Below, piece by piece: positions 4,588 through 28,523 of a stretch of DNA of 64,000 nucleotides. The DNA lies in assembly GCF_900110535.1 (NCBI RefSeq), contig NZ_FOJA01000001.1, forward strand, positions 992,001-1,056,000. Reading direction: 5' to 3'. Within the stretch, counting starts at the first letter, position 1. Every line of letters begins with the position of its first letter. Origin of the DNA: Halobacterium jilantaiense (GTDB taxonomy: Archaea; Halobacteriota; Halobacteria; Halobacteriales; Halobacteriaceae). Made by a program: the position numbers and the translations under genes. The notes below the pieces were generated by a model that did no database searches, was not told the DNA's origin, and saw only the letters and a list, made by a program, of their open reading frames with translations.

Positions 4588-6501
4588 ATGGCGACCGAGA
4601 AGATTCTGGGCATCGACCTCGGCACCACGAACAGCGCGTTCGCGGTGATGGAGGGCGGTGACCCGGAGATCATCGTGAACGGCGAAGGCGACCGAACGAC
4701 GCCGTCCGTCGTCGCGTACGACGACGGCGAACTGCTCGTCGGGAAGCCGGCGAAGAACCAGGCCGTCCAGAACCCCGGTGAGACGGTCGCCTCCATCAAG
4801 CGCCACATGGGCGAGGGCGACTACACCGTCGAACTCGGCGGCGAGGAGTACACGCCCGAGGAGATTTCGGCGCGCATCCTCCAGAAGATCAAGCGCGACG
4901 CCGAAGAGTACCTCGGCCACGACGTCGAGAAGGCCGTCATCACGGTACCCGCGTACTTCAACGACCGCCAGCGGCAGGCGACGAAGGACGCCGGCGAAAT
5001 CGCCGGCTTCGAGGTCGAGCGCATCGTGAACGAGCCGACCGCCGCGTCGATGGCGTACGGCCTCGACGAGGACCAGGACCAGACAGTCCTCGTCTACGAC
5101 CTCGGGGGCGGCACCTTCGACGTCTCCATCCTCGACCTGGGCGCGGGCGTCTACGAGGTCGTCGCGACGAACGGCGACAACGACCTCGGCGGCGACGACT
5201 GGGACGAGGCCATCATCGACCACCTCGCCGACGAGTTTGAGGCCGACCACGGCATCGACCTCCGCGAGGACCGGCAGGCCCTCCAGCGGCTCACCGAGGC
5301 CGCCGAGGAGGCCAAAATCGAGCTCTCCAGCCGCAAGGAGACCACGGTCAATCTGCCGTTCGTCACGGCGACCGACTCCGGCCCGGTCCACCTCGAACAG
5401 GACATCACGCGGGCGACCTTCGAGAGCATCACGCAGGACCTCATCGAGCGCACCGTCGGCCCGACGGAGCAGGCCCTCGAGGACGCCGGCCTGAACAAGG
5501 GCGACATCGACGAGGTCATCCTCGTCGGCGGGTCCACGCGGATGCCGCAGGTCCAGGACAAGGTCGAGGACCTCGTCGGTCAGGAGCCGAAGAAGAACGT
5601 CAACCCCGACGAGGCCGTCGCGCTCGGCGCGGCAGTTCAGGGCGGCGTGCTCTCCGGCGAGGTCGACGACATCGTGCTCGTCGACGTGACACCGCTCAGC
5701 CTCGGTATCGAGGTGAAGGGCGGACTGTTCGAGCGCCTCATCGAGAAGAACGAGGCTATCCCGACGACCGCCTCGAAGGTGTTCACGACCGCCGCGGACA
5801 ACCAGACGAACGTCCAGATTCGCGTGTTCCAGGGCGAGCGCGAGATCGCCGACGAGAACGAGTTCCTCGGTGACTTCCACCTCTCGGGCATCCCGCCCGC
5901 GCCCGCCGGCACGCCCCAGATCGAGGTGACGTTCGAGATCGACGCCGACGGCATCGTGAACGTCGAGGCCGAGGACCAGGGCTCGGGCAACGCCGAGTCC
6001 ATCACCATCGAGGGCGGTGCCGGTCTCAGCGACGACCAGATCGAGGAGATGCAGGAGGAGGCCGAGGCGCACGCCGAGGAGGACGAGGAGCGTCGCCGCC
6101 GCATCGAGGCCCGCAACGAGGCCGAGACGGCGATTCAGCGCGCCGAGAACCTCCTCGACGAGAACGAGGAGCTCGTCGACGAGGACCTCGAATCCGAGGT
6201 CGAGGCCGCCATCGAGGACGTGCAGGAGGTCCTCGACGAGGACGAGCCCGACGCCGACGACCTCGAAGCCGTCACCGAGGACCTCAGCGAGACGCTTCAG
6301 GAGATCGGCAAGCAGGCCTACCAGCAGGAGGCCCAGGCCGGCGCGGCCGGCGGTGCTGGCGGTGCCGGCGCGGGCGGCATGGGCGGTATGGGCGGCGCTG
6401 GCCCCGGTGGCATGGGTGGAGCCGGCCCCGGCGGCGAGGACGGCGACGGCGAGGAGTACGTCGACGCCGACTTCGAGGACGTCGACGACGACGAGGAGTA
6501 A
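4588..6501 (+). CDS. dnaK: DnaK (Hsp70) chaperone
   Basis: A 637-residue Hsp70. It uses ATP to bind and release unfolded protein, with DnaJ delivering substrate and GrpE exchanging nucleotide. The ATPase domain starts with [10 protein letters not shown] and carries the phosphate-2 motif [11 protein letters not shown]; the substrate domain begins around residue 370 ([13 protein letters not shown]). The C-terminus has the Gly/Met-rich linker repeats GMGG/GAGPGG and the acidic tail that replaces EEVD in prokaryotic Hsp70s. It is complete and of normal length. Confidence 0.97.
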
Positions 6502-26822: not shown

Positions 26823-26890
26823 ACCGGCACGAGGGCGGCCAGTGAGATAGCAGTGGGGTCCGCCGAGAGGAAACCTACAAGCGGGCCGAG

Positions 26891-26908
26891 CGTAAAGCGC
26901 GTTTTACG
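26891..26908. promoter_or_regulatory. Palindromic operator before the DUF2178-HTH operon
   Basis: CGTAAAGCGCGTTTTACG matches its reverse complement at 16 of 18 positions. It ends nine bases before the ATG at 26918 and would straddle the transcription start of a leaderless message whose TATA-like box is near 26873. The core GTAAA-N6-TTTAC recurs at 27608-27623 and, imperfectly, at 27591-27606. It is a likely binding site for the HTH protein encoded at 27331. Confidence 0.6.
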
Positions 26909-26917
26909 ATTGTGTCC

Positions 26918-27334
26918 ATGAGCGACCACGAGCCGACCGGGACGGGGCGAATGGCGAAGGTTCGGCGGTACCGGCGGCTGCTGTTCGCGTGCATCGGCGT
27001 CGGCGTCGGCGGGTTCCTCGTCGCTGTGGAGTTCGACTACCCGCTGGTCGGGCTGGTGGTGTACTGGGCGGGCATCCTCGCAGCCCTGGGCGTCTGGAAG
27101 GGGACGTCCGTCACGCTGTACGACGAGCGCGACCTCGACCTGGAGCGCCGGGCGAGCCTGCTCACACTCCAGATTGCGGGCGTCGTAGGTGTACTGGCAA
27201 TGACCACGCTCGTCGTCACTGACCAGATGCCGTCGGTGGACGTCCCCGAGCGAATCGTCGGTGGCTTCCTCACCATCTCGGCCCTGTTCATCGTCTACGG
27301 CGTCGTCTACACCGTCGTTCGCTACCGACGATGA
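26918..27334 (+). CDS. DUF2178 membrane protein
   Basis: A 138-residue protein with four hydrophobic segments in two pairs (LLFACIGVGVGGFLVAVEF, LVGLVVYWAGILAALGVW; LLTLQIAGVVGVLAMTTLVV, GGFLTISALFIVYGVVYTVV) joined by the loop YDERDLDLERRASL. That charged loop and layout are typical of DUF2178. Archaeal DUF2178 proteins are often encoded beside a small Xre-type repressor, as here. The ATG at 26918 is preferred over a GTG two codons earlier. The stop overlaps the HTH gene (ATGA). It may sense the membrane and control the repressor, by inference. Confidence 0.78.
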   Translation: MSDHEPTGTGRMAKVRRYRRLLFACIGVGVGGFLVAVEFDYPLVGLVVYWAGILAALGVWKGTSVTLYDERDLDLERRASLLTLQIAGVVGVLAMTTLVVTDQMPSVDVPERIVGGFLTISALFIVYGVVYTVVRYRR

Positions 27335-27531
27335 GAAACCACGTGCGCGAACGCCGCGACGAGGCGGACCTGAGCCAGGCCGACCTCGCGGCCGCCGTCG
27401 GCGTCACTCGGCAGACAATCAACGCCATCGAGCGCGACCGCTACGACCCCAGCATCGAACTCGCGTTCAAGCTCGCGGACTTCTTCGACTGCCGGATAGA
27501 GGACCTCTTCGACCCCGAACTCAACGGGTAG
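27331..27531 (+). CDS. Small Xre/Cro-type repressor
   Basis: A 66-residue single-domain helix-turn-helix protein. The recognition region is LSQADLAAAVGVTRQTINAI (residues 14-33), followed by the typical DRYDPSIELAFKLADFFDCRIEDLF closing helices. Proteins of this type bind short palindromes as dimers. It is translationally coupled to the DUF2178 gene and flanked on both sides by near-identical palindromes, so autoregulation plus control of the downstream ABC exporter operon is the simplest model. Confidence 0.9.
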   Translation: MRNHVRERRDEADLSQADLAAAVGVTRQTINAIERDRYDPSIELAFKLADFFDCRIEDLFDPELNG

Positions 27532-27575
27532 CTGAGGCGGCAGTTCTGTTCGTCGCTCCGTTCGGACCACCGACA

Positions 27576-27623
27576 GCTTTACCTTGGAGTGTAAAACAAG
27601 CCTTACTGTAAAGCTCGCTTTAC
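27576..27623. promoter_or_regulatory. Tandem palindromic operators before the ABC exporter
   Basis: GTAAAGCTCGCTTTAC (27608-27623) is a perfect palindrome apart from its two central bases. GTAAAACAAGCCTTAC (27591-27606) is a weaker copy one base upstream, and GCTTTAC at 27576-27582 is a further half-site. The core matches the site at 26891-26908. The distal arm overlaps the likely TATA element (TTTACA, 27619-27624) of the ABC operon, so binding should repress transcription. Confidence 0.62.
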
Positions 27624-27642: not shown

Positions 27643-27768
27643 ATGTCCCCCCACCGACCTCGACACCACGACACGACGCCGGCCGCAGACGACCGCTCCG
27701 GCACTGACGCACCGACGACCGACTGCTCAACCACCGACCACGTCGCCGCCAGACCGAATCACCGATGA
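27643..27768 (+). CDS. Possible 41-residue leader peptide of the ABC operon
   Basis: An ATG at 27643 opens 41 codons that end in a TGA overlapping the ATG of the ABC ATPase (ATGA). The product is rich in His, Arg, Thr, Asp and Pro and has no family. The ATG lies 19-24 bases after the TATA-like TTTACA, as expected for a leaderless gene. It could be a real small protein, a leader for translational coupling, or just 5' leader sequence. Confidence 0.3.
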   Translation: MSPHRPRHHDTTPAADDRSGTDAPTTDCSTTDHVAARPNHR

Positions 27769-28523
27769 CCGACCCCGCCATCCGCGCAGACGGCCTGACG
27801 AAGCGCTACGGAGACGAAGTTGCGGTCGACAGCCTCGACTTCGCTGTGCCCGCGGGCAGCGTCTACGGCTTCCTCGGGCCGAACGGTGCCGGGAAGACGA
27901 CGACGATGCGCCTGCTCACCTCCCTCACCGACCCCACCGCGGGGAGCGGCGAGGTGGCCGGCGTTCCAGTCACCGATCGGGCGGCGCTCACCCCGCGAAT
28001 CGGCTACCTGCCCGCCGACCCACCCGTCTTCGACGAGCTGACGGGCTGGGAGCAGCTCCGGCACGTCGCCCGACTCCACGGGCTCGGCGACGACGAGGCG
28101 GACGCCCGCATCGAGTCGCTGCTGGAGCGCTTCGACCTGCTCGCAGACGCCGACCGCCGCATCGAGTCGTACTCCACGGGCATGACGAAGAAGGTCGGCG
28201 TGGTCGCCGCGATGCTCCACGACCCGGACGTCCTCTTCCTCGACGAACCCACGTCGGGGCTGGACCCCCGGGCCGCCCGCACCGTCAGAGACACCGTCGC
28301 GGACCTCGCGGCGGGGGATGCGACCGTTTTCCTCTCCACGCACGTCCTCCCCGTCGTCGACGAACTCGCGGACACCATCGGCGTCATCGACGACGGCGTC
28401 CTCGTCGCCGAGGGTGACCCAGAGGACCTCAAATCGACCGCCCGCGAGGGCAGCGCGGCCGACCTGGAGACCGTCTTCATGGAGGTGACTGCGGATGCCG
28501 ACGCCCCGCTCCCGGACGCGTGA
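27765..28523 (+). CDS. ABC transporter ATPase (ABC-2 type)
   Basis: A 252-residue ABC ATPase. Walker A is GPNGAGKTTT (about 38-47), the Q-loop region is GYLPADPPVFDEL, the signature is the variant YSTGMTKKVG, and Walker B is VLFLDEPTSGLDP. This pattern is typical of ABC-2 exporters for drugs, lipids or peptides, not of importers. It overlaps the permease gene by 29 bases. Expression probably depends on the palindromes at 27576-27623. The substrate is unknown. Confidence 0.92.
   Translation: MTDPAIRADGLTKRYGDEVAVDSLDFAVPAGSVYGFLGPNGAGKTTTMRLLTSLTDPTAGSGEVAGVPVTDRAALTPRIGYLPADPPVFDELTGWEQLRHVARLHGLGDDEADARIESLLERFDLLADADRRIESYSTGMTKKVGVVAAMLHDPDVLFLDEPTSGLDPRAARTVRDTVADLAAGDATVFLSTHVLPVVDELADTIGVIDDGVLVAEGDPEDLKSTAREGSAADLETVFMEVTADADAPLPDA

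Follow-up and report, generated by a model that had tools for sequence, protein, structure and literature searches.

A predicted CylR2-like repressor with a DUF2178 membrane partner and a conserved palindromic operator in Halobacterium and related archaea

Genes of the locus

The window analyzed here, a stretch of 64,000 nucleotides from the genome of Halobacterium jilantaiense, contains an operon of two overlapping genes, encoding a DUF2178 membrane protein and a small Xre-type regulator, followed by the genes of an ABC exporter (Table 1). The presence of a DUF2178-HTH pair had been proposed in an earlier note on this DNA, and both families were confirmed by Pfam: the membrane protein scored 25.7 bits against PF09946 (gathering cutoff, 22.8), and the regulator was assigned to HTH_3 (1.6e-18). 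The AlphaFold2 model of DUF2178 consists of four helices with a mean pLDDT of 87.5, and a fold search with this model retrieved no solved structure alike. For the exporter ATPase, the score against the DrrA-type model TIGR01188 was 243.8 bits, below the cutoff of 312.45, and the Pfam search yielded no family for the permease. The 90-residue ORF that adjoins the operon on the opposite strand has a counterpart in the same position at two further Halobacterium loci.

Table 1. Coordinates of the genes, promoter elements and predicted operator sites
Feature	Position	Strand	Description
ORF, 90 aa	26550-26822	-	adjoins operon; no Pfam family
BRE/TATA-like element, DUF2178-HTH operon	26870-26881	+	GAAACCTACAAG; identical in three Halobacterium species
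Predicted single operator, DUF2178-HTH operon	26891-26908	+	CGTAAAGCGCGTTTTACG; palindrome GTAAA-N6-TTTAC
DUF2178 four-helix membrane protein	26918-27334	+	PF09946; stop overlaps HTH start
Xre/HTH_3 regulator, 66 aa	27331-27531	+	CylR2-like; recognition helix TRQTINAIE
BRE/TATA element, exporter	27570-27583	+	CCGACAGCTTTACC; fits consensus upstream of 103 tandem operators
Predicted tandem operator, exporter	27591-27623	+	two palindromes and linker T at 27607
First exporter palindrome	27591-27606	+	GTAAAACAAGCCTTAC; one mismatch, degenerate copy
Second exporter palindrome	27608-27623	+	GTAAAGCTCGCTTTAC
Leader ORF, 41 codons	27643-27768	+	TGA overlaps ABC ATG (ATGA)
ABC exporter ATPase	27765-28523	+	PF00005; DrrA/BcrA-like
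ABC exporter membrane subunit, 560 aa	28495-30177	+	gene overlaps ATPase gene
Third exact site	G000:C1:22490-22505 (L001 1501-1516)		upstream of secreted beta-lactamase-family serine hydrolase (PF00144)

In a phmmer comparison with solved structures, the closest relative of the regulator was 9k3w (2.1e-16), a 65-residue transcriptional regulator of the "PbsX family", for which neither a publication nor an operator was found in a literature search. The CylR2 protein of Enterococcus faecalis (PDB 1utx, 1.5e-12; also 2xiu) is likewise a 66-residue HTH_3 protein with a nearly identical recognition helix region (RQTINxIE), and 59 of the 66 residues of the Halobacterium regulator align to it, an alignment that covers almost the whole of this single-domain protein. 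In 59 relatives, a clear gap divides the orthologues of the regulator, with E values no worse than 1.4e-13, from the other HTH domains, which reach 2.7e-7 at best. An antitoxin identity was rejected, all matches to HipB, HigA and other NCBIfam models being under cutoff.

Palindromic sites and promoter geometry

The three palindromes that the earlier note had described upstream of the operon and the exporter were all recovered at their positions. In the window, three matches to GTAAA-N6-TTTAC with at most one mismatch were found versus 0.05 expected from dinucleotide shuffles, and in the 2.95 Mb genome the exact pattern occurs three times, versus zero for the pattern read backwards. The exact sites precede the DUF2178-HTH operon, the ABC exporter and, outside the window, a gene for a secreted beta-lactamase-like hydrolase. 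A chance origin of the palindromes is ruled out by the shuffles and backwards controls; many unrelated copies across the genome, which the earlier note had named as evidence that would count against it, are ruled out for the exact sites, with just three in total. When one mismatch is allowed, the whole genome contains six matches versus four in the backwards control, so the single-mismatch sites elsewhere in it are noise. Such counts are also near control in most of the 13 Halobacterium genomes, and therefore no regulon members are claimed from sites of this kind.

Both palindromes upstream of the exporter are real, and their description can be refined to one 33-bp unit with a 17-bp register and the layout 16+T+16. 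Upstream of its DUF2178 operon, Halobacterium has just one site. The third genomic site ends four bases 5' of the start codon of the hydrolase gene, and reading of the sequence revealed a degenerate first copy, GTAAGCCCCACTTTGG, before it in the same 17-base register. A homologue of this hydrolase from another family (58% identical, locus L168) bears the tandem operator, and the other 12 Halobacterium genomes lack the hydrolase itself at E 1e-60; the gene was perhaps acquired together with its own operator.

Alignment of 103 promoters on the tandem operator revealed a BRE/TATA element whose TTTAA has its centre about 10 bases 5' of the operator, with TATA at -12 to -8 relative to it. The TATA element of the DUF2178-HTH operon is less typical and weaker than that of the exporter promoter. 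The usual distance from TATA to start in archaea is about 25 bases, so that transcription would be expected to start near the T between both palindromes. The sites, which the earlier note had placed over likely promoter elements, leave the TATA box uncovered, about 8 bp upstream, and lie over the predicted transcription start. A site downstream of TATA and over the start is a position taken by repressors in archaea, such as those of the MDR1 and LrpA types. Since a protein occupying such a site would prevent polymerase from being recruited, the operator position, on which this assignment is based, suggests that the HTH regulator is a repressor rather than an activator. Immediately behind the tandem, or 1-2 bases beyond it, there is often a weaker third palindrome (L081 5635-5650; L169, L185 and others), which suggests that three repressor dimers could bind in some promoters.

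Conservation in haloarchaea

Orthologous loci were selected by protein similarity alone. At these loci the site is nearly always present, most often as the tandem 16+T+16, so the palindromes are conserved where the earlier note had asked for conservation to be checked. The four closest Halobacterium orthologues (L009-L012) have it at the same place, one exactly and three with one mismatch; a few haloarchaeal loci (L102, L255 and L264) have no recognizable site. Among haloarchaeal genomes with the HTH gene, 30 of 32 contain an exact site (71 sites versus 6 in the backwards control), compared with 8 of 27 genomes without the gene (14 sites versus 15). The association over these 59 genomes is significant by Fisher's test (p = 2.4e-7, uncorrected for kinship). 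Of the 391 genomes covered from this class, 124 contain the exact tandem and none its backwards control.

The presence of the operator also seems to depend on the type of recognition helix, since genes with a helix of the RQTINAIE type usually have a site and those with divergent helices (SRQTIGSLE, ARQTINLIE, RRETIGFLE and others) are mostly without one; few divergent helices were available for this contrast, and one of them, SKQTILVME, is accompanied by an exact site.

Composition of the predicted regulon

In total, 103 distinct exact tandem sites were read, in a sample that favours genomes with multiple sites, so that the proportions are not frequencies. All but four precede DUF2178-HTH, exporter, hydrolase or lone DUF2178 genes (99/103). 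The DUF2178-HTH pair is downstream of 73 sites, in three cases followed by a serine hydrolase; exporter genes follow 13, a secreted DUF3887-alpha/beta hydrolase 6, a serine hydrolase of beta-lactamase fold alone 3, a lone DUF2178 gene 4 and something else the remaining 4. Exporters located far from any HTH gene (L139, L147, L150, L163 and L207) retain the tandem site, and the complete layout of the window, site-DUF2178-HTH-tandem-exporter, recurs in another family (L073). Because of these two observations, the earlier suggestion that one regulator serves both promoters of the window is now better supported, and the tracking of sites with the HTH gene points in the same direction. Overall, the comparison strongly supports the predicted operator, with its conservation, and the membership of the regulon, and it also speaks for the gene pairing. 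What is added here to the earlier note is the tandem architecture, the third genomic site, the extension of the regulon to hydrolases and the related bacterial loci described below.

Most exporter loci contain a counterpart of the membrane subunit, 45-78% identical, and the stop of the leader ORF also overlaps the ABC start at 11 of the 13 other exporter loci. The counterpart of the leader at L070 and L073 is a protein of 80-95 aa with a hydrophobic, membrane-like stretch. At L071 the tandem operator (6190-6222, on its reverse strand) and the small ORF are kept, the ABC and permease genes being gone.

Related loci in bacteria and other archaea

A scan of 84,980 species genomes with the HTH protein yielded 80 loci, for which 1000 bases upstream were examined. 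Exact sites were found at 39 of 45 haloarchaeal loci, at 6 of 15 loci from bacteria and at 5 of 20 from other archaea, against 0 to 0.1 expected from shuffles. With at most one mismatch, sites are present at all 15 bacterial loci (versus 0.9 expected) and at 9 of the 20 other archaeal loci (versus 1.15); about half of the methanogen loci are missing a recognizable site. A further set of 249 Bacillota genomes, drawn separately, added nine new loci, seven of them with a site at no more than one mismatch, including one that is weak and far upstream. One of the 45 loci counted as haloarchaeal, L246, is labelled as a Gemmatimonadetes MAG and looks haloarchaeal; it is probably a mis-binned haloarchaeal contig.

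At 70 of the 80 loci, in two domains, the HTH gene is directly preceded by a short ORF (85-190 codons), which in nearly all cases encodes a hydrophobic protein of membrane type, named by Pfam as DUF2178 or, weakly, as DUF6442 or DUF3796. Outside the closest relatives, DUF2178 diverges much faster than the regulator, with identities of mostly 11-45% versus 55-80%. In an alignment of 49 archaeal and bacterial partners, D69 and E70 do not vary and R71 is almost constant. Cassettes of the HTH gene with DUF2178-, DUF6442- or DUF3796-like partners in Bacillota and methanogens (for example Bhargavaea L258, Lacrimispora L282 and Methanolobus L286) have the same type of helix, a DE-motif membrane partner and a GTAAA-type operator, and the Bhargavaea cassette is also followed by a pair of ABC ATPase and membrane protein genes. 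The bacterial cassettes differ in that the sites often take the form GTAAA..TTGAC and do not, as a rule, occur as the 17-bp tandem. A literature search returned no described function for the Bacillota and methanogen cassettes, and likewise nothing on DUF2178, this operator or a CylR2-like regulator in archaea.

Comparison with the CylR system

The CylR1/CylR2 pair likewise combines an HTH protein with a small predicted membrane protein. CylR2 is a promoter-bound repressor that is relieved by an extracellular signal requiring the membrane partner; CylR1 is needed for induction, and its way of signalling to CylR2 is not understood (PMC3709268). The pairing known from CylR2-like repressors is represented in the window by the overlapping DUF2178 gene, and a conserved inverted repeat is present, as a predicted binding site, in the promoters studied here. 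The comparison covered the HTH protein and the pairing. The CylR genes are divergent from the lantibiotic operon that they control, whereas the Halobacterium genes overlap in a single operon. A role as a lantibiotic regulator was rejected, no lantibiotic synthetase having been seen among the proteins that happened to be examined; the operon is co-directional and followed by an ABC exporter, in contrast to the divergent position of CylR. The Halobacterium system also differs in its predicted exporter and hydrolase targets, its archaeal promoters and the tandem operator with 17-bp register. It would be a variant of the CylR2-type membrane-paired repressor, with an archaeal regulon and an operator in common with the bacterial relatives.

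Proposed mechanism and alternative explanations

In the mechanism that we propose, the 66-residue protein would act as a dimeric CylR2-like repressor. Its operator would be GTAAA(G)-N4-(C)TTTAC, and this operator assignment is highly probable. The repressor would shut its own operon through the single site and the exporter through the tandem, where two dimers would be bound side by side, and, being placed just downstream of BRE/TATA and over the expected start, the bound repressor would block the recruitment of RNA polymerase. DUF2178 would sense an envelope-acting compound or state in the membrane, and its conserved acidic DE(R) loop would relieve repression; the regulon would in turn expel the compound and break it down by means of the exporter and the secreted hydrolase of beta-lactamase fold, to which the regulon of relatives would add the secreted DUF3887-alpha/beta hydrolase. 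We infer binding and repression, the sensor function of DUF2178 and its signal. The membrane linkage of the regulator is suggested by the frequent pairing with DE-motif partners together with the CylR1/CylR2 precedent. Because CylR1 is needed for induction in that system, DUF2178 is somewhat favoured as the component that lifts repression. This physiological role, in which a compound that acts on the envelope is pumped out and broken down, is proposed from the nature of the targets alone and is tentative. Taken as a whole, an autorepressor of CylR2 type that is relieved via a DE-motif membrane partner and runs an export and hydrolase regulon is considered a very probable explanation.

The main competing explanation concerns the partner: the HTH protein may bind the sites and sense a cytoplasmic ligand or its own level, DUF2178 being co-regulated cargo, for instance a protein that protects the membrane or assists export. 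DUF2178 genes that stand alone behind a tandem operator, without an HTH gene in the vicinity (L076, L166 and L210), as expected of an effector, and the fast divergence of DUF2178 are in its favour, but the partner adjoins the HTH gene at most loci in both domains and its DE pair is invariant, and we regard this explanation as rather unlikely. That small HTH proteins can activate transcription would allow an activator or dual regulator recruiting the transcription machinery at tandem sites; in the aligned promoters the sites cover the predicted start, with TATA upstream of them, which speaks against this and makes it improbable. Reading of the palindromes by another protein, with the HTH gene as a passenger of the locus, is the least credible and highly improbable, given that site counts are at background in genomes without the HTH gene, that sites away from the HTH gene are nonetheless followed by genes of the same set, and that homologous HTH genes of bacteria have the same site amid otherwise different genes.

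Conclusions

The preferred explanation, relief of a CylR2-like repressor via its membrane partner, places parts of the same kind as CylR1/CylR2 in Halobacterium; H. salinarum, which is genetically tractable and not pathogenic, has an orthologous locus. The predicted operator, the target set and the invariant DE motif make the old question of the membrane-linked switch easy to test, and a regulon and a testable mechanism are provided for DUF2178 and DUF3887, domains of unknown function. With the operator code, regulators of this kind can be annotated in many genomes of archaea and in some of bacteria. With the chances about even, archaea and bacteria may have in common a phosphorylation-free switch from membrane to DNA, composed of a CylR2-type repressor, one operator code and a DE-loop partner, which here would control an archaeal envelope-defence regulon made up of the exporter and the secreted hydrolases.
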